Assembly: GCA_014871385.1 (NCBI GenBank)
Contig: CM026426.1
Coordinates: forward strand, 1,067,201-1,131,200
Source of the DNA: Ceratodon purpureus
Lineage: Eukaryota > Streptophyta > Bryopsida > Pseudoditrichales > Ditrichaceae
Direction: 5' to 3'
Length of the DNA: 64,000 nucleotides
The position numbers were made by a program, and so were the translations under genes. Each line of letters begins with the position of its first letter. The stretch's first letter is position 1. The notes beneath the pieces are model-generated. The model saw nothing but the letters and a program-made list of their open reading frames with translations. It did no database searches and was not told the origin of the DNA. Positions 11,663 through 52,704 of this stretch are shown here, piece after piece.

Positions 11663-12128
11663 ATGGCACAGCCGCAGAATCCCCAAAAATTTCAAGTGCA
11701 GGACAACATCAAACCGAAGACATGGACCACAGATGCGGTAAATGACATTCCTCTTCTAGATATGGAAGACCAGGTCGGACAAAACATTGAACGGGTTCCA
11801 CAGAGGGTAGTAGTCTGTGAGGAACCCCTTACAACAAGGGAAAAAGGGCAGTGTTTGCTCAATAAACCTTCGTTATTAGTAGAGGAAGGTGAAGCTTTTG
11901 CGGAATATATCAAGGACCAAAGAGTAAAGCAAAGGGAGAGGTCGATCCCAAATCGGGGGGACCTCAATGTTTCGGATGGAGATTGTAAGACATTTATGCA
12001 ACTCTTCATATAATAGTCCTTCTCATTTTTTTCGTATTTATGGTTAAGTAGAATTTTTATTACTATCTCAAATTGTGTGGTTTTCAAGGATTGAGTTACG
12101 ATATCCATGATGGCAGATATGGCGGATG
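11663..12128 (+). pseudogene. 5' half of a small CACTA-associated gene, interrupted by the giant hAT
   Basis: The first coding exon, 11663-11984, starts with MAQPQNPQKFQVQ. A 111-bp intron (11985-12095, GTAAGA donor, TTGAG acceptor) follows, and the second exon opens at 12096. At 12128 this exon is cut by the 20.3-kb insertion and resumes at 32429. Joining the flanks with one copy of GGCGGATG keeps one frame through to the stop at 32674-32676, giving 200 residues. The product is hydrophilic with charged segments and a Lys-rich end. I recognise no domain. Position downstream of TNP2 on the same strand suggests an element-encoded accessory protein, but this is inference. The gene is disrupted as it stands. 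Confidence 0.75.
12121..12128. repeat. Left 8-bp target site duplication of giant hAT
   Basis: GGCGGATG lies immediately left of the CAGGG terminus and is identical to 32421-32428 at the other end. An 8-bp duplication is diagnostic of hAT superfamily insertion. Confidence 0.95.
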
Positions 12129-12157
12129 CAGGGTTTTCTATGCCGTCGGGTCGTGAC
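12129..12157 (+). repeat. Left terminal inverted repeat of giant hAT
   Basis: It starts CAGGGTTTTCTATGCCGTCG. Compared with the inverted right end there are three mismatches in 29 positions (14, 21 and 23). The start of the 250-bp derivative at 29118 shares the first 13 bases. Confidence 0.95.
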
Positions 12158-12359
12158 TTTTCCGTTGCGACGTCCAAATGGGTCGTGACGGGGGTCCTCC
12201 GACGTCACAATAGGGGTCAGCGTAGGGTCCTTTAGGTCCTGCGAGTAGCGTGGGTAAAAGAGTTACTCGGCCCCGTTACGTGGCGTCCTACTTGGAATTG
12301 CGGTGGCCCTGGACGGTGACGTGGATGTGCGGAGGAGTTCCGACGGCGGAGTGGGGCGA

Positions 12360-12790
12360 ACAGAGACGGGCAACCGATTTAGGGTTCAGGGGCGGACGTG
12401 TTTAGGCCTGGCGGACGATTGAGGAGGAACACGACCGTTGATTGCCGGGGAAGTCCGCGAGTGGGCCGGACTGGTAGGCGGACATGGCTCGGACGGGCCT
12501 GTAGGCGGGCATAATGCGTATCCGGGTGGGCGGACTTGATGCCGATCGTATTGCGGACGGAGGTTGTCGGACCGAGCGGACACGATGTGGACGAACACAT
12601 ACAGGGTGGTCCACGATGCAGTGGGGTGTTGGGAACATGGCTCGGACGGGCCTGTAGGCGGGATAATGCGTATCCGGGTGGGCGGACTTGATGCCGATCG
12701 TATTGCGGACGGAGGCTTTCGGACCGGGCGGATGCGATGTGAACGAACACATACAGGGTGGTCCGCGATGCTGTGATTGAGAACATATTG
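12360..12790. repeat. Left subterminal CGGAC-rich region with a 153-bp tandem duplication
   Basis: A unit beginning CATGGCTCGGACGGGCCTGT at 12483 repeats at 12636 with only scattered differences. Both copies and their left flank are dense in CGGAC/GTCCG (for example GGCGGACGTG, GCGGACTTG, TTGCGGACGG). Long open frames on the minus strand across this region are by-products of the duplication, and I do not call a gene. Subterminal repeats in hAT elements often bind transposase; that role here is inferred. Confidence 0.8.
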
Positions 12791-13164
12791 TCTTCAATTT
12801 TCACACAGCTCAACTGCTTCACGAGCAAATATGAAATTCGAACCATCCGACACTACTGAAGTGACACACTGACCAACTACTTCTCAAACCGATATTGAAT
12901 TCCATCAGATTATATATTGTAATCGACCTGTATCCATTAAAACATGGCTGTCTTGGTAGAAGTTTAGTCAGTGAAAGAGTATAGCTCTGAAAGTTCCTTA
13001 TAAAAAACAGGACTTCCGTGATAGTAGCTTAGTTATCAAACGAGTATAGGTCCGAAAATTCCTTACAAACAGTCTTTGATCAAAGTTTTCCTGGTTCGGA
13101 TGCACATTTGGGAGTTTAAAAAAGATAAAGTGTCTAAGCTACTGTAAGAAAATTCACTGCGTAG

Positions 13165-14677
13165 TCACAATGCAATCCATTCCGTCGCTGAGATACAGTC
13201 GCAGTCTTCCAAGAAATCGGAGGTGGAAAACACTATTTTGATTTCCGGCGGCATGTAGAGGTCGACTTGTCCTTGCGCGCATAATTCCACCCTCCAATGT
13301 CCGAGTTCAAATGCTTGCGCCTCTTTTCTCCCTCTCCAGTATCCGGCGCACTGCCAATCCCGACTCGCGCTGTTGTAGCAAAACTCAGATATCAGTTCCG
13401 GACCAGCGCAATGGACACTCTAATGCACAGTATCATGTCAAAAACGAATTTCAAAAAAAAATTGCTTATCAGATGCAAGATACAGACGCATAAGTCGGAA
13501 GTATTTCATATTCGGTTCCATTACAGATTCAGCAATACTGGAAATCAATGCACATGCGCGACATTGACGTACCTTCGCACTTGAAAAAGCCGAAGCTGTT
13601 CAACCAGTTCTCTGCAAAATGCTCCCCGCATCTTGCACAGTTCTGACCAAGCGAAGTCCGCACTGCAGCGCACCACGGGTGGTATGGGCAAGCGCACGAC
13701 GCAGTCACGAGGTCCATCGCCGGAAACCCTTGGTTACAAAGGGAGCAACCTTGCACTGTAAGGGTAATTGAGTCGATGTTCTGAGTGGGCGCTGCGATTC
13801 GAGGACTGGGGGCACGGAACATTGATGTAGACGACCATATCTGAAGCTGGCGGAGATTTTCTTTCAAGCCTCTCACCTTGTCCCTTGCATCCTGCTTTGC
13901 AGAAGACAGGCGTTTCTCATCCTCGATGGCCACCGCGAGATCCCTCTCCGACGTTTCACTTAAATCCTCCTTCATACGTTGCACTTCCTCCCCAGCCTCC
14001 AAGATTCTCTGTTCTTCGCCGTGGATTTCGTCCTCGAAGAACCTTAGGAATGTTTCATCAGCAGAGCCTTCGACGACGGACTTCATCGCCCCCCACTTCT
14101 GCAGGTTCGCCTCGGAGGAGTCCATAGTCTCCTCAATGCACCTCAGCTTGATCTGAAGCTTGTACCTGTCCATATCCGTGAGCGGTGGCTTGGCCGTCTG
14201 CCTCAGAAGTGCAGCCCGTTCGTGTGCAACACTATGGGCTGCCACGGCCGTCTCGAAGTCCTTCTCAGCGTCCGCAATCTCGGCTTCCAGGCCCTTGTAG
14301 ACGATTTCGACGTAGGTGGCATTCCGGTCAGGGGTGCGATACAGGACTGTGAGTTCGTCTCCGCTCTCGATTTTCTTACCCCTCCAGCGATCCTCCGCAT
14401 ACTTTGCCCAGTTCATTGGGTAGCAATGGAAAACCTTCGAAACGACCGCTCTCGCGAAGCTCTCCGGGAGGAACAAACCAGCAGGAAGCTCGGGAATTTG
14501 AGAGATTGCTGGGTACAGCTCCAACACTCTCGCCTTGACCTCTCCTGATTTCGCTCCGTCGAAGAGATATCCCTTCCCAGGAACCCTCTCTCCGAATATG
14601 GACCTTAGCTCCTCATTGCTGACATGGTTGCAGTCGAAGGCGGGGTCCAAACCTGCATTTGGCAACCCAACCTTCAT
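13165..14677 (-). CDS. Cargo gene: coiled-coil protein with C-terminal RING-like zinc motif
   Basis: Exon 1 (14677 to about 13573) encodes about 368 residues. A unique N-terminal region is followed by a coiled-coil stretch (about residues 125-275: EIADAEKDFETAV through KVRGLKENLRQL). A compact zinc motif follows at about 308-345: Cx2C-x13-CxCx2Hx2C-x10-Cx2C (CSLC, CACPYHPWC, CARC), then NSFGF. The same motif occurs in the genes at 17.4-19.8 kb and 53.3-55.9 kb, defining a family. A strong donor (GAAG/GTACGT) ends the exon at 13573. A second open stretch (about 13419-13165, with LGHWRVEL) resembles the post-RING part of the 53-kb gene (HGHWDVQ), so it is probably exon 2. The best splice sites are one base out of phase. 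RING-like folds usually suggest ubiquitin ligase activity, which is unproven here. A TATA-like GCGTTAAATA lies near 14891. Confidence 0.7.
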
Positions 14678-14889
14678 GTGAAAGTAATTCTCCTTCCCAA
14701 CTTCTCATATTCTGACCCCTCTCACTCGCAACAGGTATATCCCTCCTCTTCGATCGGACCCTTGCAACCTCAGACCAGCGAGCTACAAGTTGGAACCAGA
14801 ATGCAATGGAGACTCCAACCAAAACTCTCAGCGATGGCGTGGATTGAATGGAACTGCCCTGGCCATGGCTACCCCTACAGGCAGCCGCC

Positions 14890-15939
14890 ATATTTAACGC
14901 CAAGGTGGTCATCTCATTATGGTGATTTGAGGGGTTGAGTTCGGATTGGCGACTGTGACTTGACAACATACCTTTCAGGACTTCTTGTCTTCGTACTCCT
15001 CCTTCAACACTCAGTGTATCCAAGTAGGCTCCATCATTGCAACATGAATATGGTGTTTCAAATGTCCTGTAGGCTGTGGGTAATAGACGGTTTAATAGAT
15101 GGATCAACACGAAATTCATTGCATTCAAAAAAATCTATGCACCTTGTAATTCTACTGAAGTGTCACACCGATCAACTCTCGTGTTCGTAAGTTCTATTGG
15201 GAATTTTCGTTCATGAGTTGGTCACAGTTTGAATTTCACGTTGTTGAAGAGGATTTGTGACATTTTCTCTGCCTAAGCACGGGACACGAGCCGTATTTCT
15301 CGGCCAGTCGTCCGGTCTTTCCGACATTCCTCGTCGCCAGGTTTGAAGATCGAAGTGGTTTAATGTAGCGGACGATTGAGGCCGGACAGGCGGATGCGGA
15401 TCATGGTTTAGAGTCGAAAGGCAATGATATGCGGACGCGGCTGGGGCGGACTGGTAAGCGGGCATGATTCGGACGCCAATAAGACGGATCGGAGAGCGGG
15501 CACAACGAGTACGCGGAGTGGGCGGACTATATGTCGGACAGTGGTCACAACGGGAGGGTGTCGGATCGCACGGATTCGAGGTGAACGGGCACCATCCGCG
15601 GGTGCAGTGGGCAAGGGGGTGGTCCGCGTCGCCGGACCATTTTCAGAGGGTCCGGCGTGGAATAGACGTTGGGTGTTTAGGGCTCTGGTCCCAATATTGT
15701 GGAATTACAATCACTCTATCATGGCTTTGGGGTCAGGAATGTGACAAACAAACTCTATTTACAAATTGATCTGTTCAGAGTCGGTACATGACCTCCTATG
15801 CGCCTAACCTGGGCGAATGCAAACTCAGACCCTGGTGTTCAGAATGATATAGTTATATTCAAATTGTCAGACCACTAAGAAGCGGTACCTGTGCGTTGGA
15901 CAAAACGTTTCTAAGGAGTTTTGCATACTCACATGTGAT
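14890..15939. promoter_or_regulatory. Spacer with dense CGGAC/CGGAT array (15290-15660)
   Basis: The left part contains the likely promoter and leader of the RING-like gene. From about 15300 to 15660 there are roughly 17 occurrences of CGGAC, CGGAT or complements, such as GTAGCGGACG, GGCGGACTATATGTCGGAC and GCCGGACC. No coding exon is supported. The array lies just downstream of the kinase gene and upstream of the RING-like gene, as in the other cargo spacers. Confidence 0.6.
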
Positions 15940-17400
15940 TTATGAATGGGTGTCCCGGAAACACATATTCGGTGTTTGCAGATTGTAAGGTGGTAACTTC
16001 AATGTCCTCACGACGTGTGTGACGGTTTGTCTAGTAGCCGGGTTGATCTGGGTCATTTCGTCTAAACCCTGCTCAAAGCGCATCTTAACCCCGTTAGGAT
16101 CTCGATCCTGCTGAAATAGAACCAATGTCGAGTCGGAGTTGTAAATCTGCCTTGCGAGTACTCCAACGCTATAGGACTCTGATTTGTACGTGTGAGGGTG
16201 CTGCTTTGCCATGCGACGTGGGGATTGGGATGAGCCTCTAGAGCCATGCACATGGAACAACTCCGGAGCGGCACAACTGTACATTTCCATGTACTTCTTT
16301 ATCGCGTCTTCGCTCTGTACTCCGTAGTACGAAGGGGCCGATTTGGGCATGCAAGAAGCCATTCCCCAGTCACATATACCTATGAAAATAGCTCCATCAC
16401 GGTCTGTTGGAAAGTGGAGCATGACATTGTTAGGGTGTAGGTCGCAGTGTAGCACTTCCTGGCCGTGTACCACATCCACAATGCACATGAGAGCCCAGGC
16501 CAAGTGAGCTCGATTTTTTCGGTAAACGACCAGCTTCTTCCGGGCCTCGAAGTCCAGACCTGAGTCTTTGAGGAGTTCCATTTCATGGGTTTCCCCAGAT
16601 TTCAAATCGAACGCACGCATGTTCTTCAACGAGCCTCCGTTCCACCATAGCGAGTACGACTCTAACGTCTTCCGGTTTAGGTATTGCAGCTTAATCACAC
16701 CAGGGTGATCAACTGGACATGACATTGCCTCGATAGAGCGTTGATCGCGACTTGTCTTGAAGTCAGTCACCTTCATGGTCTTCCTTGCAAAATGAAGCCA
16801 CTCCGGGATGAAACATGCCTCTGCAATTCGCACCCTTCGCACGATTCCAAACGAACCCTGAAAACTATTTTCGTCTACGGGGATGGCGTAAGAACCCTTC
16901 GGTAGCCACTTCAGACCGTTTCTGTCCCGAGAAGCGATGTCGTCGGCCAGAGCTCTCCCGACAAACTTCGGCAGTGTAGTCCTTCCCTTCCCCTTCGCGA
17001 GGATAGCACCTCTTTTCCAATTCTCCAGCTTCTGTAGGAGCTCGGAGTTTCCCCCACTACGTCCCGAACCAGGTCCACACAACATTTAAATGGCACTGTC
17101 GAATTGAACAATGCCTCCTGCACCTGTTCCTTGATCCACTGTCCCCAATTGCTCTTCCCTCTATCCTCCTGGAACTCATCCCCCGCCATGCCCTCCTGCA
17201 GTAGTAACCTCAGAGCATTCGAAGCTTTCTCGAGTCCCGCCGGACCATCATTCAAGAATGTACTCTCCAAGTATGGCATGTCGTGGCTTGCAAACCAGTC
17301 CAGGATTATCTTTCTACAGCAAAGCCTAGCCTCCGTGGAATGCTGGTCACACGCGGCTACCTTCTTCCGATGCTTGTGCTTCCTAACCTCAGAACCGGAC
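15940..17400 (-). CDS. Cargo gene: divergent protein kinase, possibly fused to the upstream RING gene
   Basis: The kinase-domain frame runs from 17085 to 15940, about 381 residues. Kinase landmarks in order are a glycine-rich loop (QGSFGIV), a VAIK-like ARKTMK with the ATP-anchoring Lys, a catalytic loop HCDLHPNNVML (an HRD variant keeping Asp and Asn), GICDWGMA in place of DFG, APELF, SYSVGVLA in the helix F position, and a helix I Arg (NPATRQTV). Catalytic residues look present. An N-terminal stretch in another frame (about 17388 to 17060; LCCRKIILDWF, GQWIKEQVQEALF) probably belongs to the same protein, but no adequate intron connects it to the kinase frame, so an indel is likely. No CGGAC spacer or promoter separates it from the coiled-coil/RING gene immediately upstream, so the two may form one RING-kinase transcript. 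The substrate is unknown. Confidence 0.72.
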
Positions 17401-19783
17401 GCGGTCGACCCAGACTTTGAAATTCCCGAGCGGAAAGTTCTCTGGGAACTCTCTTGGATCGTACGCCCAGCCCCTGGGCATGAAATCCCTCAATCCGAAT
17501 GTCAAATACAGGCGAGGATGGAGAGGGGCTGAGCAGATTGGACACGCACGTCTTCTTATCATCATCGGGATTAAACAATTCCGGAGGGTACATCGTCTGT
17601 AAAGGCGGCCAGGAGATGAGGAGCAAGTGTCGCAATCGTCCATTCTCCGTCCACTCTTTCTGAATTGCCTCGAATTCCTTCTCGTACTGAAGTCGCCCCG
17701 CTATTGCAAGTATAGCGATCATGTAGATATCCTCCGTTTTTTGGAGCGCACCCACGAGTAATGCCTTCTGCTCCTGAGTTAATGACTCGGACCAGCCCAG
17801 GATTGGATCATCGTTGGCACCACCTTCATTCACAGCGCCAGTGGCCTTCCCAAGCCGTGTTACCTCCTCTAGTAGTCGCAGGTTCTCTGTCTCCAATTCC
17901 ACCACCTTCGCATTGTTTGCTTCTTTCTCCGCCTCTGCCTCCGCACGTATCAAGTTGTCGCTCGTCGTAGCGACTTCCCGGAGCTCGTTTAGTTCTTCCT
18001 GTGTTTTCTTTGCCAAAGCTATTGCGTCCGAAGCCTTATTCTTATGATCTTCCAGTTTGGACGCCAATGACAGGATGATCTCTCCTTGCTTCGATGTGTT
18101 CTTCTTCTCCTCCTCCAGTTGGCGAGACAGTCTCCGACATTCGTCTTCCATTGCCTTCGCACGTATCTCGGATTCCTCTAGTCGGACAACCCGCTCCGTG
18201 GATGTGGCTTCCGCCGCTATTGCTCGCTTTTCCGCATCTTCGAGTCGGACGCTCATCTCCCTCATTTCCGTTTCCAACGCAATTATGCGTTCCTCAGCGT
18301 CCGTGAGTTGGCCATTTAACTGCGTGGTCAGGTCCTCGGCCGTTTTCGCTGCGTACATGGAGGCTTTCATATCCTTTTCCCATGCATTAGCCCGTGCCTC
18401 TACCCTCTCAGCGCATCTCAACGCCTCGTCCCTTTCTCGCATCAACTCTGTGTCCGATGTTCCTGCCATCTGGTCCCCGCTGTCGGACACGCGAAGAGCC
18501 TCTATCTTTAGTTCCAAACCACCTATTGTTGCTTTTAACTCCCGAACGTCCGCGTCATGTTTGGCAAAAACTTCCTCTAGCAGACGCCGCATTACCGGGT
18601 CTGCTCCCAATACAACGTTTGCTGCACCTCTCGGCTGAGGAGGATCGTGATGGGCAGTGCTAGTTGTCGCACCTCGTCCGAATAACCCGTGTTCCGAGCC
18701 GGGCATCCGCCAATCCCGTGAGGTCGTCGGAGCGATTCTCCCATCGAATCTGTGGTCCGACCCACCTAAACCCTCGTCCGACGCACCCAGACCCTCGTCC
18801 GACGCACCCAAACCCTCGTCCGACCTACCTAAACCCGGGTTCGCGTTCTCGATCCCATCGTGCGCCATGTCAAGGTCTATGTCAGCTCCAGAAAAGGAGG
18901 CTACTGTCGCGTTGACGACTTCTTCCAATCCGACCATAGCCACATCTGGCCCGGAACTCTCCTCACCTGCCTCGGATGGTCCCCATGCCGATCCCGTCCG
19001 ATCGTTCCCCCCGTCCCTCGCATGGGATGCAGTCGCCGCGCCCGACCCTTCTCCCGCACTCCCGCCAATGATGGGGTCCGACCCACTTCCCTGCCAATCG
19101 GATCCGAGCATACCAGCCATCTGATCCTCGTACGTGGCATTCTGTATTGTGCGTTGCCGTGGTCTCCCGGCCCTCGACGGTTCCCTGTCTGTCGGTATCG
19201 GACCCCCTGGATCTTCAACGAGGGAAGGATTACGCTTGAACCATTCAGGCACATCTATATAAGGTATGTGCACCGGCTTCTTCGCTGTCAATTTCTCTCC
19301 TAGACCTCCGAAAGTGGAGCCTGGAGTCTTTAAGGTAGACCAGTCGACCTTCTTCTTCAACACATGCTCGGCATACATCAGGGAAAGAATAGCCTTCGGG
19401 ATCTCGTTCTTGGGCCACTTCAATTCATTGGAAATTGCCCGAAAAATGCAGAGGAATCTCCACTTCACGTCCACGTCTGTCAAGGATGCATATTTCGCGT
19501 TCTTCGACTTACAGTGTTGTGCGTGCGAACTATCTGGCCAAAGCCGATCGAAATGAGGAAAGTCGACAAAATGCATAGCCGTCGCAGCGTCCCAAGGCTC
19601 TGGCACTTCCTCCCAGCCATTAGCAGCCAGTATCGCTCTATTGTGGAAAACGTCTAGCTGCAAATCCAGTTCTTTGCGGGCTCTCTTCCCGGAACCACTG
19701 GCGGACTGCGATCCGCCGGCGGACTCATCTCCGCCCGGTCTGCTCGGCCTCCTCCTAGAGGGAGTGCCCGATCCGGTGGACAT
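17389..19783 (-). CDS. Cargo gene: large coiled-coil protein with RING-like C-terminus
   Basis: The start ATG at 19783 gives MSTGSGTPSRRR. The N-terminal family domain has GWEEVPEPW at about 56-64 and LMYAEHVLKKKVDW at about 135-148; both recur in the gene at 53.3 kb. An 8-residue repeat (SDEGLGA type, about 310-340) is encoded by GTCCGA-bearing 24-bp units. A long coiled coil spans about 390-650. The RING-like tail (NCLIPMMIRRRACPICSAPL, then LTFGL) lies in a different frame (17643-17389) from the coiled coil (ends near 17640). Either a small intron or a frameshift separates them, and the first Cys pairs are degenerate. A TATAAA lies at 20081-20086 about 300 bp upstream on the minus strand. 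Coiled coil plus RING suggests a scaffold or E3-like protein, by analogy only. Confidence 0.7.
18760..18850 (-). repeat. 24-bp coding repeat carrying GTCCGA motif
   Basis: Three to four in-frame 24-bp units of the form CCCTCGTCCGACGCACC- (plus-strand view) encode repeats of SDEGLGA in the coiled-coil gene. Each unit contains the same GTCCG core that fills the non-coding spacers of the element. Confidence 0.75.
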
Positions 19784-21354
19784 CCTCGTGCTGCGAACTT
19801 CGGACCTGCTCACAATATCTTGGTTAGATCCTGATACGATTACTCTTAAACCCTAAACGGACACTTCGCATATGCTGGGTTCAGGGGAAAAAATTAACAT
19901 TAAGTATATAATGTGACAGAGCACACGAATAGGGTCAATTTAGTACTTACAGAATATTCAGGTCGTACAAGGACCCCACGCTCACCCCGCACCCCGCGCG
20001 CCCGCACACTCAGAGAGAGGCAAGCGGTCTGGGCGCAAAAGTTGAGAAGTGTGGAGAACGAATGTGCGTCCGAACTTGCATTTATACGAGTCCGCCTCTC
20101 CGTTCCGCACCCGCCCGACCCACTGCCCATCCTGCTCTTGCCCCTTCGCATTCCTCGCTCCCTTCCACATCTCCCGCTCCCTGTCAAGTGCACAACGTTC
20201 CCTTTCAGGTCGAGGGCGGTTCGGACCAGGAATCCGACGTCCAGTCTGACTACTGATCAACATTCCGATTCGGAATTGTCAGTCCGGCTTGCAGTCCGCA
20301 GTCCGCGCTACAATCGGGATTGTAGTCCGCTGCATCGCGGACACGCGCGAACGTTCCAGAGTGACCTCGTCCGACCTCGTCCGTCGTATCGCTCTTCCAA
20401 GCTTTGGTGCTCCCCAATTATCACGCCATCCAGGAACGGGTTCCGCTGCGTCCATCCGGCTTGGTTTTTTATCGATTAAAGTTTTCCTTATTATTTTTTC
20501 ATTATCTTTCTTGGATGTTTTTTGTGCCAAAGAGCAAACTTCATCTCAAAGACCCGATTGAGGTCCTCGTCGGACGACTTTTCACATAAAAGATAGGATA
20601 CTGCAGCATTGTACATGTACAAAACTAACACTAGTTCGGAGGTATTCCTGAAGTTTATAGTTACGGATCACGATGAGGATGAGTTCGAATTGCAAGGACG
20701 TGTCCGACCGGATGTTGGATTAATCGTTACACAAGTTCTCTGTGATGATCAGCTCTACAGTGAGTTCTTACTGAACAGTTGCACATTCAGAATCGTGTTC
20801 GAGAGAAAAAGGAAGGAACCATACAGGTGGAGGTTGCATGCAAGATTTTATTTTATTTTTTGACGCAAAGGAATTCCATTGGAAAAGATAGATTACAAGC
20901 CCGCATGCAAGAGTCTATCACGCATTGCCCTGGCTAGAACACCAGTATCGTACCTGAAGAGGATACACAACATACGCAAAAACTAATTAGGGGTAAGGCA
21001 GGCACATGACAGCCGTCAGAGCCAAATTTCCATAACGCAACGCGGACTCCATATCACGACAATGAATGATCCGAGATTTAATGCACGCCGCCAACTCCAT
21101 TGGACGAGAATCTTACGAAATTGGGACTTTATTGGACGTTGCCAGAGCACTGTTCTATACATAGTAAAAAGGCACATAAACTGATAGTAACAACATGTCT
21201 AGCAAAGGTTCGTGCAGGATTAGAAAAGCCGAGTAATCCAACCCAGGATCACTTTCCGTAAATCAAAAATAGGAACTACAAAAAAGGGATCTGTGAGACG
21301 TAAGTTACAGTGAAGAAAAGTTCTCAAAATGGAGCTTAAAAACTGCAAAGCTCA
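19784..21354. promoter_or_regulatory. Upstream region of coiled-coil/RING gene, with CGGAC array
   Basis: The minus-strand TATAAATGCAAG (20081-20086) is a good core promoter for the coiled-coil/RING gene. Between about 20200 and 20400 lies another cluster of GTCCG/CGGAC motifs (AGTCCGGCTTGCAGTCCGCAGTCCGC). The rest, 20600-21350, is lower in GC. An 84-codon plus-strand frame at 20609-20863 lacks any recognisable feature and is not called. Confidence 0.5.
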
Positions 21355-22172: not shown

Positions 22173-24417
22173 GCTACGAGACGATGCGGAAATCAAGAGA
22201 GTCAAGTGGGAGTCTCAAATGACAGTCTCAAAAATACGCACCCTGTTCATTCTAAAACGGATAACAAGAATAACCAAAAGTACTATACGCATATCGTGGA
22301 AGAGCATAGGTAATCTACCGTGTAGACAGTAGACTGCCGTTGTAGAAGAACGAGTGAATAATGACTGAACAATGCATTTGACATGATATCCGAGAGCAGG
22401 GAAAGAGTGACAATGATTAGATCAAGCATGTTAATCATAAGTACTGATGTTTTGGTGGGAGTGGAGACATGTTAGTGCATGACTTAAAGAAGAACGTCCA
22501 TTCAAATCCGACATTGCCATCCGTCGTCCGACCTTCGTATCCGCGCTCTCCGCATCCCGTCCGCATGAACCCGGGTGCATTTGGATCCGACGAGAGCACG
22601 CTCCCGACCTGTCCGACCCACTGACCGCGTAATTCCCAGTGTTGAACGCAGGTTCCGATGGCTCAATCGCTCCGATTCTCCGATCACAGTGACTGTCACG
22701 GACCACGCAGCCAAGATTAAACAAAAATACGAAATTCATGGAGAAAAGAAAACGCTATGAATGAAGAAGGATGAATAAGCGTTTAATAAGAAAAAAAAAA
22801 TAAGGGAAAGTTATAGAGAAATTATGAAATAATGTTTAAATAAGGATGATATAGAAACAAATTCGTGAATGATAAAGGAATGAGGTGGGAGTACAGAATA
22901 GAATACTTAGAGCTAAATAATATATTAAGCCCTAAAGTTCTGAGGGTATTTTTCATCAAAACTGCCTGAAAACAGCTCCTCTTCGAAGCAAGGTGGATTC
23001 TGAAAACTTGGGGGTTTTTTTTTTAGCATCTAACCAAAAGATCTTGTAGCTAACTTCAATAAATTGCATACATACGTACATGCCCAAATTTAAAAAAGGC
23101 CCAAATGTGGTAGATTGTCCTTTAGGGGTTAAAAACGATAAATACAGAGTGATTACTAACGGGAGTATTGGAACGATATTAAAAATAAAATTAATTGGTG
23201 GCAATGATCAATTAGATGGCATAAGAGCGAAAGTAGACTAAAAAATAATATAGAAGTCCAACTACAATTCCAATGAGGACAATTAAATTTCCTTAAAAAA
23301 TATAACGACCGTATAAATTATACTACGATTTAACTAGGTATGACAAAGTTGGTTGGCGTGTAGGCAAAAGGTTTAACATATGTAGGCCAAAAGTTTTGGA
23401 TATGAAAGGCGTTTCAATTAAATCTTAACCGCAACTTACCGCAATGTACCGCAACTTACCGCATTGTGAGGTAGCACTACCCCACCGCCCCCCTCCCCCC
23501 CTTCCGTAACAATGAGGATAATGGGATTTGGGTTTAGAGAGCACGTATGCACATGTTTGTTATATGCACATGTTTGTTATATCAATGTAATTACTATACT
23601 CATGTGTTGGTTGCATAAACAAACATTTAAAAAAATATATAAAAATATATCTCCAAAGATTAGAGATTTTATAGGAATCTTGGAATGTAAATGCCGAAAT
23701 TAGTAAATGATTGTCACGCGCTTTAATAACTTGTTATTTGGGCTTTTATAAAACGGATGCCAAAAAATTTCAATGTTTTCCTTATTCCATTTGTTTTTTA
23801 TAATACAGATTCTCACTCTGTTTGTAAATCACGTACAATTACATCCACATGTGGAATACTATACCAAATGGGACTTCCCACGATGCATGCTCTACGAAAT
23901 AATGATATTTTTATTATTCGGAACAGGATAAAATAGACAAAATTGAGGGACCGCGGAGGGTGCACTCTAATACGCACAAAAGGGAAGTGAACTGTACGCA
24001 AACGGGGACGAAGATTACAATGCAACCCGTCCGACCTGCACCGGACATCCGGCAACGGGATCGGACGAGTAGCCTCCGAGATCATCCAATCAGTATAGGC
24101 GCCGGACAGTGAGTCGGACAGTGCAATATCCGGGGTAGCCAAGAGTGCATGTCTGACACAGAAGTGAGGATGGCGCGAGGAGGGGAGTGCGAGGAGGGGG
24201 AGTGGGAGGGGCAAGACACAGAACACTAAAGGATCCATGGCGGACAAGGTCGAAGAGCCACCAAAAGGGGATATTAATCGTGGGCGGACAGAGGTCGCAC
24301 ATCTGTCGCGGAGCAGACCGATTCATGCGCGGACGGGTGACAAGGTTGTCGGACACGGCTTGCATAAGTACGGAATGGAGGTCTCCTCATATCGTAGTAT
24401 GAAGACTAGGCGAGCGT
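22173..24417. other. Gene-free interval: two CGGAC clusters flanking AT-rich DNA
   Basis: GTCCG/CGGAC clusters lie at about 22496-22640 and 24000-24360. Between them (about 22740-23960) the sequence is AT-rich, lacks the motif and has no coding exon. It includes short repeats such as ACCGCAACTTACCGCAATGT near 23430 and a C-rich run near 23480. The composition change suggests a later insertion, but I found no terminal repeats. Confidence 0.5.
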
Positions 24418-27400
24418 TCACTCTCGGATGCGAACAGTTGGGTCGTTGGCTTCATCGCAACGTCGGTCCTCCTCGGATTCATCTGGGCTCATGTCGTCAT
24501 CAGACCGCGGACTTCTAGTGCTTAGCCGCAACTCATCGTCTCTGGTGATAACTAGCTTCTTCGTTGGACGGGATCCTTGGGGGTCGCGTATTCCATTTTC
24601 ATCGAGTTCTGGTCTACCTTCGGAGTTGTCAGGTTCGTACGGGGCGAAACGCGACGCAGTCCCCTGGAACCTTTTCTTTCGCTTTACACCTCTTGTTGTT
24701 CGTTGGATAACACTTCCCCTTGCAGGACCACTGGACACTCTTTCCCCAGTCGTGCAACTAGATGCACGTGCCCCAGGGTTCCGGATCGACGTAGATGGAA
24801 CCCCTCTCCGCACGGGCCGGCTGCGTGAAGAAGACGCGGTCAGAACAACGGACTGGCTACCGTTGGTTACAGCAGATCCTACTGCTCGGCGTCTGCGTCC
24901 CCGGCCGGAGGTCTGCTGCGGAAGGATGTGACCCCTACCAACGGGGGTGGAGAGCAGGGCAGAAGCTGGCTGTTGCTGGTTTACAGCCATACTTCCGGAC
25001 GTACTAGCAAGGCTTTGAGTTATGGGACGGCGTATTTCCTCAGACGGGGTCTGAACTTCCTGATCAGCCATCCTCCTTCTCGAATCTTCCTCCGTCATTT
25101 CATCTCTCCGGCGATTGATAGGTGGTAAATCCTCCTGAAAAACTGTTCAAATCTCTCCCTCCATGTTCGCCAGGTTCTCGTCGAAATCCCTCTGGCCGAA
25201 TGACAAAGAATCACTCCAAGGTTGCGAGAAGTCCGTGTCGACGATAGGTATCCTCCGGGCCGGACTACCATCTCCTCTATCCGACTGTATTTCTGCTTCG
25301 TTGATCGGACTCTCAGCTCGACGCTCACCTCCAGCATACGCCTGCCGTCCGACGCGACTATCCTCGCGGAGGATATCTTCAACCGCATCTCGGCGGTGTC
25401 CTGCGTCAAACATATTGTGGAAGAGCTCGGCAATCCGGACATCGCCACCGTCGTCACCGTCAGATCCTGCGTCGTCCGATCCGGATTCCTCAAAGTCGCT
25501 CTCGGGCGGATCGTCGTCCGCAAGTCCGACACCCCCCATGCCCAATCCGCCCTGTCCGACACCATCCATGCGGGCATCGTCCGCCACATCGTCCGCTACA
25601 TGGTCTCCTCCCCGTCCAACGTCTTCCTCCTCGTCGTCCTCGTCCGGATCCTCGCCATCGAGGTCATCGTCGGAATGAACCTCCTCTAAGCCATACCACT
25701 GTGCCGGACGCGGGGCCCGGCGGTGATGAACGAGTCTACTGTTCGTGTAGATATACACGAGGTCCTCCGCTCGTACATGTTTCAATCTATTGCGCACCTT
25801 GTTGTGCACGTAGGAGTACATGCTCCAGTTGCGCTCACACACAGACACGGAGCAAACCTGTCCAAGTATACGTCTAGCTATTGTTTGGAGAGCCCGGGCT
25901 CCACCTCCCATTGCGTCCCACCATTTGGGATAGCAGTGCCGTGCGCCTGGGGATCGGTTGAATCAGCAAATGCCTTCCCGATTCTCGAGGGAATCCTGAT
26001 ACTGGACAAGGATCTGGACGTAATTCTCCTCGTTAGACGATAACTTGCGAAAAACCCGGTTTAAAATGATCCTCGACTCCTCGTGGTTATGAAGTGGCGC
26101 CTATCCACGTAGGGTCGGGTTGAGCATCGCACCTGCCCAATGAAGATCTGTCAACATCATAGCCCATCTGTGGTCGAATGCAACCATGGCGTCTGCTGCC
26201 AGGTCCGCGTTCAATCTAAATGGATGGGAGGAAAAACTGCGGACGTGGTTCTTCAAATCGTACATCGCCCTCCAAGCTAGGCCCATTGCAGGTGCCTTCC
26301 CATCAAAAAGGCGTAATGCCTTCACCACTGGGATGACCATGTATAAGAAGTTATGGCACGTGTTCCAGAAACCGTCCGCACGCACATACTTCCGCATCAG
26401 GCGGACCCTCTTCCCTGCTGAGCTGTTCACATCAGGATAGGTTGCTAAAATACCTGCAAACGCCGGATCGATGACCATTCTCTCAAATGCATTCCGAAGT
26501 TCCACAAGACGCTCGATCATAATGAAATTGGTCGCGAACCGCGTCTCAACGGGCAAACGGATGGTCAGTTTGGGACACATCACGCGAAACAAAGCCATTG
26601 ATGAATGATGATTTCTAACCCATAGACAAATAAGTCTCGCCTTTCTGACTATGTGCTTCACCCAATCCTCCTTCCCCCAATCTTCGAGCAACAGATCCAA
26701 GCAGTGTGCGGCACACCCTTGAACATAAATGTGAGGATATCGTGTCTCGAGCATCCGACTAGATCCAAGCATGTTCGGAGCATTGTCAGTGCAAACTTGG
26801 ACCACATGTTGCGGTCCGACCCGTTCCACAAACGGACGGATCTGAGAAGCAATGTAATCGCTATCTTTGTAGTGTCCCGTCGTGTCTATGGTTCCAAGGA
26901 AAACATCGCCCCTGGTCCCACTCTGGATAACATTCAGAAGAGGACGACTCTGGACGTTGTCTTAACCGTCTGCACATATCGTAACACCGTATTTCTCTGT
27001 GGAATTGCCCGTGAGTTCCTTTACTTGTCTCACCATTTCCGCCTTTCTCGCGCTCAACAGTTTTGTGCGAATAGCATTCATCGATGGCGGCAGGTATGCC
27101 GGGAAGCGGGATCGCACTGTTTCCCGAACGGCGTTAATGAAGGCAGGATGCTTAACAACGTTGAATGGGATATTGGCTTCGTAGAATGCCGTCGCCCACA
27201 CTTTATCTAATCGAAGCTTCGTGGAAGCATTGAATCCTTGCACAATATTCAGTTGACGCATTTCCTTGGGTGGAGAACCCTGGGGTGCCATATCGGGCTC
27301 CTGCATAGCTGGCCCATCATTCGCGCGCGCCCCCTCGTTATCGGGAGCTTGAGGTATTACCGGATCTGGGACCCCGTCACCTCCCAAGCCAATGTCATGA

Positions 27401-27663
27401 ACATCATCGGGCTCTCTTCTAGGAACTTCACCTCCGCAGTCTACGAACAACCTCCTCACCCGCGCACTCAGCAACCTGCAAATTTGTATAGCGTAGTTAC
27501 CTGGAGCACCTAAAGGTCTGTATCCAAAGTGGGCGAACATTCTATCCTGACGGTACACAATAGTCACATTACAAATTCTACACCTAACCTGCCTCTGAGG
27601 CCTCGCACCCACCACGCCCAAGTCTTGCCACCACTGATCCCAGGCCTCTACTCTTCGCGGCAT
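24418..27663 (-). pseudogene. hAT transposase (BED finger, RNase-H-like core, HATC) with four in-frame stops
   Basis: The ATG at 27663 (MPRRVEAWDQWWQ) lies about 40 bp below a TTAAATAG box. Domains in order: BED-like finger (VRCRICNV... with His at about residue 46); DKVWATAFYEANIPFNVVKHPAF; a DUF659/RNase-H core with KYGVTICADG, GTIDTTGHYKD, VVQVCTDNAPNM and QGCAAHCLDLLL; and a HATC dimerisation region (YPKWWDAMGGGARALQ, SVCERNWSMYSYVHNK). After an acidic region comes a long basic, low-complexity tail to 24418. One frame stays open over 3.2 kb with no shift, but has stops at 26962-26964 (TAA, just after ADG where the family has Trp), 26101-26103 (TAG), 25963-25965 (TGA) and 25147-25149 (TGA). 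The copy is probably inactive and would need a transposase supplied from elsewhere. Confidence 0.9.
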
Positions 27664-28776
27664 GCCTGCGACAGAAAGCAAGAATCTGGAGGGTGAACGC
27701 ACTATTTAAGGCGAGATGGACCTATTACAGAAATTGCGCCCGACAACGCACTTCTAGCGTCGTTGAACGAGGGTGGAGGGATGGACTTGCCCTGATTATG
27801 TTCCAGATTTCCGATGGAGTTCGGACGGTCCGTTCCAGTGGGCTATGCTTGACCCCTTGAGCACACTTGGGTCTCATGCAGAGGAACCTCAGACGAGACC
27901 CCAAAGTCTTGAGACACGCAGTGCAAAGAAGGGAGAACAGATCGTGGTGAGTCGCATCTTTTATGGCACTCCCCGAGCGTGTCCGGGACCAGGGAGCGGA
28001 ACATCGCGGAGTTGTTCCGGGTGTTGCGGACGAGGTCGGACGAGGGCGGGATTGATGGCGGTCCAGTAACCAGATTCGATTTTGGTCCGCGTTGAAGGAA
28101 AAAGATGGTCAGGATCTGCATATTATGGCAGTCGTGTGCTGACATCGGGGAGGTGGTTCGCACATCGTGAGATTGGCCCATGTACGGAGATGGATCAACC
28201 ACGAACGGGCGGACTACCTGAAATCCGATCGTTTTGCGGAATGTGGTCACTCCGCAATCGGACATCGACGAGGTACCCCGACGGACTAGAGGCTCGGACG
28301 TGGTCCGCCGATCGAAACGTGCGCGTTCCGGAATCGGTCGGACGCGACCTCGGGGCAGGACTGCGGCGAAGGCGGACATAGTTGATTACAGGAACGATTA
28401 AACAATATCGCGTCGTTCTTCTAGAGCATAGGTCAAGGGTCGGAACTTTGCGAAGCGGAATCCGACTTCGGAAAGGCGGATTGTGTCTGGACAGTGAAAA
28501 CGGCGCCGGATAATACGAACCTCGCACATCCGCCCTTTGGCAGGAGATTGTGCCGGTCCGGTCTAGCGCGGATGGTGATCCGGTACGGTCGGATAGGGGC
28601 AGCAGGCAACGGACGTTCGGATTCAATCCGAGGCAGCGTCGTCCGGCAAAGGGCGAATGGCGGAGTATAGTGCGCGAGGTATGCCATGATATATAAACGG
28701 GAAGTGCGATAACACAGGTCCCTTTTGATGCAGTTAGCCCACAAGTTATTGTGGACGAGTCCTCTCCAGTTACAAG
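27664..28776. promoter_or_regulatory. Divergent promoter region between hAT transposase and small acidic gene
   Basis: Minus-strand TTAAATAG (27702-27709) serves the transposase, and plus-strand TATATAAA (28690-28697) serves the gene at 28777. The interval is crowded with CGGAC/GTCCG motifs from about 27800 to 28640 (for example GTTGCGGACGAGGTCGGACGAGGG). No coding exon is supported. Confidence 0.6.
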
Positions 28777-29493
28777 ATGGATCCTTGTGACATAACTAGT
28801 CTAGAGGATGAGGTATTAGAGTTCTTGCTCTCTTGGAATCCCGAGAGGAACGAAGTCGTTGGGGACACTGATAAGGAAACTGCTCCAGGAGCGGGCAGTG
28901 GAGACAAGGACATCGGCGTAGACAAGGTACAAGTATTGGGGGGAGGTCTATGCATTCCAGCTAACGAGGGATGCAAGTGGAAGGACAACAACGAGTACGG
29001 GAAGCCCGGAGGAAGTAGTAATGGGAGGTCATCCCCAGCACAGGGAAGGAAGCATTCCACCGCTGCTACAACCGCGATAGGTCCGATACGAAGAAACATG
29101 TGGGGGAGACCAGCCGCCAGGGTTTTCTATCCTGTCTGGTCGTGACTATCCCGTCGCGACGTCGGAATGGATCGCGACGAGGGTCCTCCAACGTCATAAT
29201 AGGTTTTGTAGTGTAAAAATGAAAAAGTATATATGAAAAGGTTGCCTAAAGGAGTTGAACCGTCACAATAAAGACCGAATGGGACGTCCGGTCGTGACTC
29301 TAAACCGTCGTGACGTCCCGACATTATGACGCAAGAGGGCCACGTTACGGCCGAATAGAAAACCCTGCCAGCCGCATCCGTAGAGACCGAAACTTCAAAG
29401 CCTAAGACTTACGTCGAGGAACTGGAGGCGATTTGGCCATCCAAGTACCTGAAACTGAAGAATGACATCGAACAAGCTAGGAAATCTAGGTAG
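28777..29493 (+). pseudogene. Small acidic cargo gene interrupted by a 250-bp hAT derivative
   Basis: The ATG at 28777 follows a TATATAAA box by about 80 bp. The frame (MDPCDITSLEDEVLEFLLSW) is open to 29117, then broken by the insertion. It resumes at 29376 and stops at 29491-29493. With the insertion and one CCAGCCGC removed it encodes 152 residues: acidic N-terminus, Gly/Ser/Lys-rich middle, and a helical charged tail (YVEELEAIWPSKYLKLKNDI). No known domain is seen. It is transcribed divergently from the transposase, so it may be an element-encoded helper, but nothing in its sequence proves this. Confidence 0.75.
29118..29367. mobile_element. 250-bp non-autonomous hAT derivative (MITE) nested in the giant element
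   Basis: The ends are CAGGGTTTTCTAT and ATAGAAAACCCTG. They are flanked by perfect 8-bp duplications CCAGCCGC at 29110-29117 and 29368-29375. The left ~90 bp resembles the left end of the giant element, and the right ~145 bp resembles its right end (shared AAAGACCGAATGGGACGTCC). It is therefore an internal-deletion derivative that retains both subterminal GTCGTGAC motifs and could be moved by the same transposase. Confidence 0.95.
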
Positions 29494-29869
29494 TTACGAA
29501 GTAAATAGTGTCCGGTTAAATACGGAGAATCTCCGTTATCGACGCAATGCATTGGCAATTAGATAAGAGGTTGGAAGATGCATGTCTGCTTAGAAACTGC
29601 ACTGGATGGATATTTCCGAAACAGAAAGGAGATATCAAACTACGGGGGACGTTCGGAATAGCTCCGTCATTATAAAACATAAATATACTCTGATCATCGG
29701 AAGATCAGCATAATAATAAACGGGGAATAAATATTATAATAAGGCCGAAAATTTACGAAAATTCTCGTCCCATATACAAAATAGTCAGAGAAAGAGAAGG
29801 CCAGAGTTAAGCATTCCAAGATTAGTAGTGAGCAGAATCATTAACAGCTGCAACACTCGTCTATAAAAA
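29494..29869. other. Non-coding interval
   Basis: AT-leaning sequence between two cargo genes. I see no exon, motif array or repeat here. Confidence 0.5.
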
Positions 29870-30709
29870 TCAAGCGTTTTCCCAAAAACCCTGCGGAAAA
29901 CCGTCCTGCTTGTTCACAATATCCGACATCTCACCGAGAGAAGGCATCGTTTTCCAGCAATACCATTGGAACTCGTAGTCCGTCATTTCGCGAGTCTCGT
30001 CACTTTCATGCTCCGAGTCGTCTTCGTCCTCGTCTACCTTACGCTTCTTGGCATTACCTGAAGATCCGTGTGTCGCATTAGGGGATTCTGCATTCGCCCT
30101 TATGGATCTACGAGATCCCAGCGTAGCGTCTCCCGCTTCCATCTCCAATGAAACCTGGCCAACTCCTCTGATTCTATCCCGGCGGAGTGGCCTCGTCGTC
30201 GTCCGACTTCCAGCCCTCCACCATCAGGCATGCGCGCATGCACACCCCTCACGCACTCGATCACTCGATGGACCTCCAGTCCGTGTCCGCACGATCTTCC
30301 GACCCTCCTCGTCCCCCCGGACCCCACTTTGCACCACCCGTTCCGCTGGAATGCGCACGCGTATCGGATGCATGATGCCTGTGCAATTCGCCACGGATTG
30401 GAACTGCAACACTACGACTGGGTCCCAGTTCGACGCCCACAGACGGGTCTCCATGAGGGGCACGGCGGAGAAGTCGGGACACAAGAGGCCATACTCTTCC
30501 TGAAACGCGTCGACGGATTCGAGCCAAGTCCGTAGACATTCCTTGGATCTCGGCACATCTTTCGCATGTTGAAACTCCCCTCCTCTTCTCCTCGCTGCAT
30601 CAACCCACACTGGCAAATCCGCGGATTCGTAGTCCGATCGGAGGAACTCGCTTAGGCACCGGCTACTCCCTTCCATACAAGATGGAGGGCACTCGCGCGA
30701 GCAAGCCAT
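29870..30709 (-). CDS. Cargo gene of unknown function, probably two exons
   Basis: Exon 1 starts at 30709 (MACSRECPPSCMEGSS) and contains CLRTWLESVDAFQEEYGLLC and WASNWDPVVVLQFQSV. A possible donor (GTGC/GTGAGG near 30260) and an acceptor before MEMEAGDATLG (30148) would remove about 110 bp containing a stop. The last part holds a basic cluster (KKRKVDEDEDD, resembling a nuclear localisation signal) and ends FPQGFWENA. No family is recognised. Spacing and strand match the other minus-strand cargo genes. Confidence 0.5.
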
Positions 30710-31400
30710 CGGGCACGGCTCGAAATGAGTTGAGGTTGGTGCAGGTTAGCGCGCGGAGAATAGACAACGCTACACCACCCAGGAAGAACGTTTTCCGCAA
30801 TGGTGCTGCATTACCAACGGCGCTCAACACATAGAAGAAGGGAGGCGATGATCATCATAGTTCCAAATGGGCATTTAATTTTCCCTCTCAGTTGCAATAA
30901 AACTAATAATCCACCTAGATTTTGGATTATGAAATCAATCCCAAGTTGCGAACAGACGTACACGCAGTTATAACAGGGCCGACGGTATAATCATAAAACG
31001 TAACACGCTCGATATGTCTAGAGAGTATGATATCATTCATAATACACCCTATCACACGAGTATCACTCGAGAACAGAATTGATAGACGCCCCCGGACATG
31101 TATTGGCATCATGAACTTATTAGTGACCACGCATGTACAAGTATGATTACAGTATCATCAATGATTTAACAATTAAAGTTTCATGATTCCAATACTTACG
31201 GATTCAATATCATGATAAACCAGCCTTATTCGGCTGCAATGCAGTGTCCGACCCGTTGTCCGATAGGCGCCGGACAATGGTCGACACCAATCCGACCATC
31301 GCAGACCTGCAACTACGCTAAACCCTAAGCATTGCAGGTCTTGATGTACTAAACTGCGATGTTTGGTACCCTACACCTTAGTGTTTCAACGAACAATATC
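30710..31400. other. Spacer, AT-rich with a small CGGAC cluster at its right end
   Basis: There is no coding exon. A motif cluster (GTGTCCGACCCGTTGTCCGATAGGCGCCGGAC) lies at about 31245-31280, just downstream of the F-box-like gene. The rest is AT-rich and unremarkable. Confidence 0.5.
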
Positions 31401-31748
31401 CTAGGATTTGTCTTCAGAATCCATAAAAGGCCGCAGGTTGAATGCAAGTCGGCTCTGGTACCAACGTGGCTGAATATCCACAAAGTTCCTCCACCCCCTG
31501 CAAACACAACGGAGGAGAGTGCATGTTCTGTAGTTCTCGATGTTGTCATCCTCGACCATCAACATCTTCCAGATGATGCCCTCCGAGACGTCTCCCGGGA
31601 TGGCAAGTAAGAAACTCGGCCTGACTCTCGTCCCCATCTCCACAATCGCCAAATACTCTTCATCGTCGCTAAAGTCAGAATCGTTCCTAAACTGGGCTGG
31701 CCCGAACAAGGCGATAGGACTCCCTGGAATCCCAGCACTGTGAGCCAT
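31401..31748 (-). CDS. Cargo gene: short F-box-like protein
   Basis: The single frame of 115 residues starts MAHSAGIPGSPIALFG. Residues about 45-95 fit the F-box pattern: LLAIPGDVSEGIIWKML, an acidic insert, then LLRCVCRGWRNFVD, with the typical hydrophobic/Trp tail. F-box proteins normally link substrates to SCF ubiquitin ligases through SKP1. No substrate-binding repeats follow, so this may be a truncated or adaptor-only form. The assignment rests on motif shape alone. Confidence 0.5.
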   Translation of the reverse strand: MAHSAGIPGSPIALFGPAQFRNDSDFSDDEEYLAIVEMGTRVRPSFLLAIPGDVSEGIIWKMLMVEDDNIENYRTCTLLRCVCRGWRNFVDIQPRWYQSRLAFNLRPFMDSEDKS

Positions 31749-32391
31749 CGCTGAAATGCAGTCAAAGTGTCACGTTTCAACGAGCCGTTGCCGAAGTGGA
31801 AAATAATGCACCGATTCCTAGAACGACCATGAAGATAAAGCAGGCGTAGCATAGTACGCCAGTCCATTTGATGGGAGGCGAACCGGGATATGTTGCCGGA
31901 CATCCGAATTCGATATGCGTCGGACCCGAACTCAGGTCGGAATTTGGCAGTCGAAGGTACAATGTCGGGATAGTGGCCGAACCAGGGTCCGACGACGAGG
32001 AGTGCAGGAGAATGTGGCGGACTTCATCGGAGCCGACAGCAATCGGATGGCAGATAAGCGTCTTGAGGGATGCCAGAATGCGGACGAGATCACGAAGGCC
32101 CGTCGGACGACGGGGCATCGATCCGGCGGAAAGCGGATGTCGGATCGGACATCGGACTGGGTATCGGATCGTACAGGGTGGCGCGGACGAAGCGGACTGG
32201 TACTGAGGCCCACCAGTATCAGACCACCTTTATCGCAAACGTGGACATCGGTTGTCCGAGGTGTCGCTGGGGCAAAAATGTAAAAGTGAAAATGTTGCCG
32301 TAAATATTCGGGCCGTCGCGATAAAGACCGAATGGGACGTCCGGTCGTGACTGTTCACCGTCGTGACGTCCCGTCATTATGACGCGAGAGG
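31749..32391. promoter_or_regulatory. Right subterminal region with CGGAC array
   Basis: From about 31885 to 32200 the motif is again dense (TTGCCGGACATCCG, GGGTCCGACGACG, GTGGCGGACTTC, GTCGGATCGGACATCGGACTG). From about 32272 the sequence matches the right part of the nested 250-bp derivative, including two GTCGTGAC copies. No coding exon is supported. Confidence 0.7.
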
Positions 32392-32420
32392 GTCACGTCG
32401 CGACGGAATAGAAAACCCTG
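32392..32420 (-). repeat. Right terminal inverted repeat of giant hAT
   Basis: It ends ATAGAAAACCCTG directly before the duplication GGCGGATG. Its reverse complement matches the left end at 26 of 29 positions. Confidence 0.95.
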
Positions 32421-32676
32421 GGCGGATGTTGGTGGATCATCGGAAAGAAAGTTGCCATCTGCGAACTTGGATCCAATGTTGGAAGCACTAGGATTGAAGG
32501 AACTCCTAGATCGTCCAGCGCAACCAAGAATTACAGCTTCTGACAAGGCAGTGGAGGAAAACAGCGGAGAAAGTAGTGGACAGAATTGTTTGAATCTTTC
32601 TATGAAAGAACGTCTTAAGAAAGCATTGAAGAAGCGTCCGGTGTCATCGCTGAAGGGACGTCATGACAATAACTAA
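32421..32676 (+). pseudogene. Right duplication copy plus 3' half of the interrupted CACTA gene
   Basis: 32421-32428 is the second GGCGGATG. The frame that left off at 12128 continues from 32429 (VGGSSERK, NLDPMLEALGLKELL) and ends with a basic segment (MKERLKKALKKRP) at the stop 32674-32676. Exact frame continuity over the repaired site confirms both the insertion boundaries and the pre-insertion gene. Confidence 0.8.
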
Positions 32677-51488: not shown

Positions 51489-51794
51489 CTAACTCGCAAA
51501 TCCTAGGATTTGAGAAATGCTTGCTACATTTTCTAGTCCAGCCGCAAAAACTAGCTTGAAGGCTGCATGGCTAAGTATTCGTCTACAGGAAGTATCTTCC
51601 GTGCGGCTAGTGACTGTACCAGCGAGTCTTTGTAGACTACTTTCATAGAAGATCCGCCACCCCGGTCCTCTCCTCCAGAAACGACGAGGTCCAGGGTTGT
51701 CATAATAGACGGACGGGCCATAAAATTGTCGTGTAGTCACGTGACAAACGTGACGGACGGTTATCGGATAGACGCTTATCGGACGGGCTCCCAA
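51489..51794 (-). other. Unassigned open frame with CGGAC motifs at its 5' side
   Basis: About 100 codons (with GPRRFWRRGPGWRIFYESSL). The 5' side carries GACGGACGGG, ATCGGATAG and TATCGGACGG, as in the giant hAT spacers. CAGGGTTGTC at 51692 recalls a hAT terminus but has no partner. It may be an eroded piece of a related element. Confidence 0.3.
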
Positions 51795-51835
51795 CCGCGA
51801 GCAAAATTACTGTCCTCACAGTTTACTACTGTTTA

Positions 51836-52060: not shown

Positions 52061-52061
52061 T

Positions 52062-52599: not shown

Positions 52600-52704
52600 T
52601 TGAATTACAATGAAGTGATAAATTTTCAAAATAAATAAAGTATTTTTTTTTAACCCTGAATTTGCAAGTTCTCTTTGGTTTACTCTGATTTTTAACTGTG
52701 TTCT

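Follow-up and report, generated by a model that had tools for sequence, protein, structure and literature searches.

Giant multi-gene hAT transposons that carry a protein kinase and a RING protein beside the transposase in the moss Ceratodon purpureus

The hAT superfamily (Ac/Ds, Tam3, hobo, Hermes) includes some of the most thoroughly studied transposons, and its members are regarded as small elements with a single gene. Here we describe a 20,292-bp element at positions 12129..32420 of a 64,000-nucleotide window of the Ceratodon purpureus genome (contig C6, 1,067,201–1,131,200; the genome searched comprises 362 Mb). We read it, with a probability of about 0.9, as one member of a giant multi-gene hAT family whose lineage keeps a protein kinase and a RING protein beside the transposase. 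The moss elements resemble the described hAT elements in their CAGGG-type ends, their 8-bp target-site duplication, a DDE transposase with a dimerisation region and the Hermes fold, and the existence of short deletion derivatives like Ds. They differ in being 23.4 and 12.0 kb long, with four and three long genes, respectively. PMC6027215 surveyed 276 hAT sequences from plants and green algae; the longest reported in the available part of that paper is 7,144 bp and none is from moss.

Large transposons with extra genes are described from other groups. The red alga Chondrus crispus has enlarged En/Spm (CACTA) families of 16–20 kb with 4–5 open reading frames (ORFs), according to the accessible sections of PMC6431247. 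These are likewise cut-and-paste transposons enlarged by extra ORFs, but they belong to another superfamily, whereas the extra genes of the moss elements are identified and common to diverged families. The 14-kb ToxhAT/ToxTA of wheat fungi, a large element with a passenger gene that was formerly called hAT, is now reclassified as Tc1/mariner-like with a TA duplication, in the part of PMC12506042 available, and is therefore not a large hAT. Starships and Teratorn are giant eukaryotic transposons with several genes, but they use a tyrosine recombinase or a piggyBac transposase and are far larger; in place of the tyrosine recombinase captain and missing 8-bp duplication of Starships, the moss elements have a hAT transposase and 8-bp duplications. 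VANDAL elements, of the MULE superfamily, encode the anti-silencing VANC proteins. As plant DNA transposons with accessory anti-silencing proteins they provide the model proposed below for the moss elements, and we know of no kinase or RING protein in them. No giant hAT was found in the open-licence PMC literature searched, and a word search for the hAT superfamily in a review of giant eukaryotic transposons (PMC6431247) gave zero matches; these repeats may have been annotated earlier in Ceratodon.

The window element is flanked by a perfect duplication of 8 bp, GGCGGATG, at 12121..12128 and 32421..32428. Its terminal inverted repeats, at 12129..12157 (plus strand, beginning CAGGGTTTTCTAT) and 32392..32420 (minus strand), are of the CAGGG type and match at 26 of 29 positions. 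A first-pass annotation of the window, based on the letters alone, had proposed a hAT transposon with exact ends, a perfect 8-bp duplication and 26/29 inverted ends, all of which we reproduce, the inverted ends over 29 bp; its span of 12121..32428 corresponds to a real element but takes in both duplications, the element proper being 12129–32420. The plant hAT end pattern is [T/C]AGNGNNG in the available part of PMC6027215. The ends of the family to which the window element belongs (family 1) and of a second family described below (family 2) are both of this CAGGG/YAGNG type. Close to the left end lies a 152-bp tandem repeat in 1.9 copies (12482..12775), and the genes of the element are for the most part on the minus strand. 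When the flanks are joined without the element, an open frame of 93 codons runs over the junction, compared with 46 codons when the element is left in. The annotation had reported a restored frame of 200 codons: an open frame does span the junction, but it has 93 codons, and a frame of about 196 would require an unproven intron around 11.99–12.11 kb.

The two ends of the element recur throughout the genome. The first 300 bp show 97–100% identity in the best 40 of 260 first-look candidates and the last 300 bp 96–100% in the best 40 of 248, the window being included in both sets. Because a genome-wide family of end matches exists, a chance origin is excluded. For 21 of the 40 listed left ends, a listed right end follows on that strand no more than 80 kb downstream, one right end serving two left ends. 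Thirteen of these pairs are 22.3–24.6 kb apart, the window pair 20.3 kb, six 32–63 kb and one 2,366 bp; inserts account for some of the six long pairs, and the longest may be mispaired. The genome search for paired ends that the first-pass annotation had suggested thus yielded further copies with both ends and shared inner genes, the lack of which it had named as grounds for giving up its proposal.

Seven sister copies, picked from near the top of the match list, were read besides the window. Three of them (A, B and C) are uninterrupted, with lengths of 23,397, 23,391 and 23,397 bp and exact 8-bp duplications (CATACATG, TGGCTAAG and GGTGAGGG), so that the duplication is exact in all four copies when the window is counted. 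The remaining four are interrupted or partly read; two of their inserts encode retrotransposon-like proteins and a third is the family-2 element. The seven sisters differ from one another by 0.5–1.8% and each differs from the window copy by 2.6–3.1%. In nine additional end pairs the duplication is exact in five, has one mismatch in two and has no match in two; in one of the last two, the right end had been placed a few bases off. Of the 14 family-1 end pairs tested overall, 10 have an exact 8-bp duplication, two have one mismatch and two show no match. The giant hAT with inner genes that had been proposed is one real insertion, and further full-length copies, each between 8-bp duplications of its own, share its inner genes. 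In the 2,366-bp copy, 1,465 bp from the start of sister A are joined to 902 bp from its end, at 99.8% identity and again within an exact duplication; this copy reads as a Ds-like deletion derivative. Together with the near-identical copies, it suggests recent movement.

Two further observations concern the distribution of the copies. Two family-1 copies on different contigs (L039 and L043) share the same 12 left-flank bases, catagcctcacc, and differ in their right flanks, perhaps because they inserted into a repeat or were rearranged. Contig C6 (110.5 Mb, 30.5% of the genome), which we take to be possibly the moss V sex chromosome, is enriched for family-1 ends in the best-40 lists (21 of 40 left ends, p 0.005; 23 of 40 right ends, p 0.0004). 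Family 2 is not enriched there (13 of the best 64 transposases, p 0.08; 18 of the best 82 kinases, p 0.12).

The window copy itself is an internally deleted, decayed member of the 23.4-kb family. Compared with sister A, it has lost 1.93 kb that held the beginning (5') of the kinase gene together with the 3' end of the RING gene, another 0.25 kb from the RING gene and some 0.77 kb of non-coding sequence, and its transposase has three stop-codon cells in the comparison. It also contains a nested non-autonomous relative of 250 bp (29118..29367) with its own 8-bp duplication, CCAGCCGC, at 29110–29117 and 29368–29375; the site is empty in all three sisters that cover it. Both the nested element and the shortened state of the copy had been missed in the first pass.

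The hAT transposase reported inside the element is present on the minus strand (24418..27705; DUF659, E 7e-29; hAT dimerisation, E 1e-6), but it is broken by stop codons in the window copy. In sisters A and B it occupies a single frame of 1,095 codons, giving 1,081 amino acids from the first methionine, with Pfam matches, both above the cut-off, to DUF659 (E 3e-37) and to the hAT dimerisation region PF05699 (E 1e-7, 32 bits where 21.4 is required); the presence of this C-terminal region above the Pfam cut-off supports hAT membership. An acidic triad (D, D, E), whose residue roles we assume to be those of Hermes, is invariant or nearly so across 18 aligned relatives. A Foldseek comparison of the predicted structure (predicted local distance difference test, pLDDT, 64) gave 12 PDB matches at E ≤ 0.001, every one of them Hermes and the best at 1.4e-14; a PDB search with the sequence gave zero matches. 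The model thus predicts an RNase-H-like catalytic fold of the hAT type, and the alignment shows the acidic triad. A BED-type zinc finger is common, though not universal, at the N-terminus of hAT transposases; Pfam gave no match to one here, and a CxxC motif can be seen close to the start of the protein. The protein collection contains 51 relatives of the transposase, one at 99% identity from a metagenome and most others at 26–65%. The near-identical relatives of the transposase (P0002, 99%) and of the kinase (P0054, 98%) come from public metagenomes (ENA, JGI), where their source is probably moss in soil or crust samples.

The kinase gene of the window copy has lost its 5' end and retains the part with the protein kinase domain (15940..17085, minus strand; Pkinase, E 5e-11). 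In the sisters it encodes 644 amino acids with a Pkinase match above the Pfam cut-off. The lysine, the HxD aspartate, the asparagine and the DWG aspartate, which presumably have their usual catalytic roles, are conserved in the alignment, and those of its 37 relatives that are 45–66% identical keep the same N-terminal domain. Foldseek assigns the model to the kinase fold with a probability of 1.00 and shows an extra helical domain at residues 175–290; with a pLDDT of 61, this assignment rests mainly on the catalytic domain. The adjacent gene (17389..19852, minus strand) is the remnant of a coiled-coil/RING-H2 gene from which two deletions have removed the C-terminus and half of the RING. It encodes 1,107 amino acids in copy C10_8.6, where the RING-H2 spacing C-x2-C...C-x-H-x2-H-x2-C-x10-C-x2-C can be read off the sequence, and a PDB sequence search finds RING finger protein 24 at E 2e-5. 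Among the best 7,996 candidates scored, one protein (P0091) is a full-length relative. The fourth long gene, of 391 codons in the window (13529..14704, minus strand) and 417 in the sisters, is open in all seven sisters; its protein has a C-terminal cysteine/histidine pattern that looks RING-variant-like by eye and no significant Pfam match.

Family 2 was recognised as a 12,025-bp insert in the family-1 sister on contig C13, at 2.4 Mb, with an exact 8-bp duplication, ATTGCAAA, that was read in this one copy. Its ends are CAGGGTTGTC on the left and AACAACCCTG on the right (CAGGGTTGTC...GACAACCCTG-like). The insertion site is uninterrupted in all seven counterparts, namely six sisters and the window, where one base of the 8-mer is changed. 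The nesting of the 12-kb element within the 23-kb copy (C13:2431280-2401280, L024–L026) gives a direct relative date for the two insertions. Family 2 has open frames for a hAT transposase (1,109 codons), a kinase (535) and a RING/coiled-coil protein (705, and 801 in most relatives). By blastp, these proteins are 40% identical to their family-1 counterparts over 699 amino acids (4e-162), 33% over 462 (1e-81) and 30% over 294 (7e-36), respectively. The order and orientation of the genes are unlike those of family 1, and outside the transposase core the two families are hardly similar at the nucleotide level.

The three genes of family 2 are repeated many times in the genome. The best 64 of 1,389 first-look candidates for the transposase, the best 82 of 1,420 for the kinase and the best 63 of 1,513 for the RING gene are all 97–100% identical, and 57, 80 and 60 of them, respectively, are stop-free. 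At least 54 of the 64 listed transposases have a listed kinase 723–935 bp upstream on the same strand, and at least 50 have a listed RING gene upstream, in divergent orientation, within 20 kb; at least 44 have both partners and at least 60 have either. Judged by these identities, family 2 is young.

A third, degenerate member (F3) begins in the window 19 kb from the first element, with the left end CAGGGTTGTC, and runs past the window on the plus strand (51692..64000). Its coiled-coil/RING gene lies in two adjoining frames (53534..55623, plus strand) and is 44% identical to that of family 2 over the RING part. Its transposase (52% to family 2) is at window coordinates 73047–75074, and 77290–77658 encode the initial 123 residues of its kinase (40%); no right end was found up to 93000, which is 29 kb past the window. 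A diverged transposase (P0007) and a diverged kinase (P0079) from public metagenomes have the same ENA source and the same contig size of 15,563 bp, which suggests that they lie on one contig, i.e. that they form the same gene pair. P0049, the RNF32 gene model of the green alga Scenedesmus in which a RING and a hAT region are annotated together, was considered as a fusion of the same kind and rejected, its RING being of another sort; it is at most a lead.

Other features of the window include, within the first element and all on the minus strand, a 218-amino acid ORF (21558..22214) that sisters A, B and C likewise keep open and that has an omega of 0.42 between the window copy and sister A; an ORF conserved in the sisters (30224..30745), with an omega of 0.24 for the window copy against all sisters over 21228–21722 of sister A, where there are few changes; and a small ORF (31401..31769) whose weak match to an F-box (E 0.0065) does not reach the Pfam cut-off. 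In the region of F3, the minus strand carries broken frames at 57689–61318 with a weak SWIM zinc-finger match below the cut-off, probably a MULE-like transposon nested in F3. In or beside F3, at 63099–63998 on the same strand, there is a piece of a GDP-mannose dehydratase/NAD-dependent epimerase (E 1e-38), followed by tandem repeats.

The trio of transposase, kinase and RING protein looks like a conserved core, whose members would be working parts rather than accidental passengers. The word cargo, used in the first pass, was right in that the extra genes are real, but it understates them, as the trio recurs in a second, very diverged hAT family. Because the trio has outlived divergence to 30–40% identity with a reshuffled order, each of its genes must serve the element. 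Several family-1 genes also bear marks of constraint. The ratio of non-synonymous to synonymous substitutions (dN/dS) between the window copy and sister A is 0.32 in the transposase and 0.25 in the N-terminus of the RING protein; the value for the C-terminal part of the kinase, calculated out of frame, is excluded. The four ORFs have 15 unique indel events in 9.7 kb, fewer than the 52 in 11.6 kb counted outside them with repeats excluded (p 1e-4); of the 15, none lies in the 417-amino acid ORF, two in the transposase and four in the kinase.

Several observations weigh against this reading. The transposase is one open frame in only two of the seven sisters (two of the others are interrupted by inserts, two are broken and one was not read to its end), the RING gene in only three and the kinase in only five. 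The RING gene holds nine of the 15 coding indels, and its zf-RING_2 match (E 5e-5) is below the Pfam cut-off. The dN/dS between the window copy and sister A reaches 0.78 in the 417-amino acid ORF and 0.62 in the remainder of the RING gene, i.e. its coiled-coil part, and among the young sisters it is 1.18 and 1.11, respectively. The 417-amino acid gene was not found in the 12,025-bp element of family 2. Finally, the co-location of P0007 and P0079 is read from their equal size and source and not seen directly.

The ends, the duplications, the empty sites and the predicted fold are consistent with a mechanism in which a DDE transposase of the hAT type would cut the element out at its CAGGG ends and paste it in elsewhere, creating the 8-bp target duplication. 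The lineage has retained an intact-looking kinase and a coiled-coil RING-H2 protein in two diverged families, the third case being degenerate, and the genes would travel as one unit because the kinase and the RING protein help the element that encodes them. Kinase and ubiquitin-ligase activities, like their purpose, are proposed here from sequence. Because kinases and RING proteins are regulatory, we favour an effect on silencing by the host or on the transposase itself. Tentatively, our first choice is that the two proteins would act on the host by phosphorylation and ubiquitination, for example by removing a silencing factor; as a second option, which we hold with less confidence, they might directly control the activity or stability of the transposase.

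Possible, though not what we would favour, is that the kinase and the RING protein are transposition machinery, cofactors of the transposase rather than anti-silencing agents. Their strict genetic linkage with the transposase agrees with this, the coiled coil could serve assembly, and TnpA of En/Spm offers a parallel; RING and kinase domains, however, are signalling modules, and the described hAT elements are known to move on their transposase alone. Very unlikely is a Pack-hAT origin, in which a chance capture brought in kinase and RING genes of the host that hitch-hike without a role. Plant DNA transposons do frequently carry gene pieces, as Pack-MULEs do according to the available part of PMC6431247, and constraint is relaxed in some ORFs among the young family-1 copies. 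The moss genes, however, are whole and not fragments, and most listed family-2 copies have all their frames open. A homologous trio is present in the second family (40, 33 and 30% identity) in another order, and partly in the third member, and the kinase relatives at 45–66% share the N-terminal domain. Instead of host fragments captured by individual copies, as in Pack-TIR elements, there are long full genes common to the copies and to the second family.

The size and the signalling genes might recall a virus-like hybrid using a hAT transposase, comparable to Teratorn (a piggyBac–herpesvirus fusion), but we consider this highly improbable and reject a viral origin: the viral contigs of IMG/VR contain no relative of the transposase, and the ORFs submitted to Pfam include no capsid, polymerase or packaging gene. 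Nor does the collection of bacterial and archaeal genomes contain a relative of the transposase. A chance composite of separate insertions, for which the nested 250-bp element of the window copy and the nested retrotransposons of the sisters might speak, is ruled out, as is chance more generally, by the sister copies, three of them uninterrupted at 23,391–23,397 bp with exact duplications elsewhere, and by the spacing of 22.3–24.6 kb in 13 of 21 end pairs.

Taken together, these data probably describe an old, separate hAT lineage with a three-gene core, found in moss and relatives, reaching 23.4 kb and highly successful. Its 12-kb family would have been active very recently or would still be active, with dozens of near-identical copies in which all three genes are open, and the kinase and the RING protein would constitute a signalling and ubiquitination kit directed against host control. 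In the available part of PMC6431247, DNA transposition is expected to fall off as cargo size grows; hAT units of 12 to 23 kb at high copy number run counter to this expectation. The retention of the kinase and the RING protein through deep divergence indicates that a conserved toolkit can travel with a cut-and-paste element. It also offers a testable case of how a transposon might evade its host, or steer it, through phosphorylation and ubiquitination.

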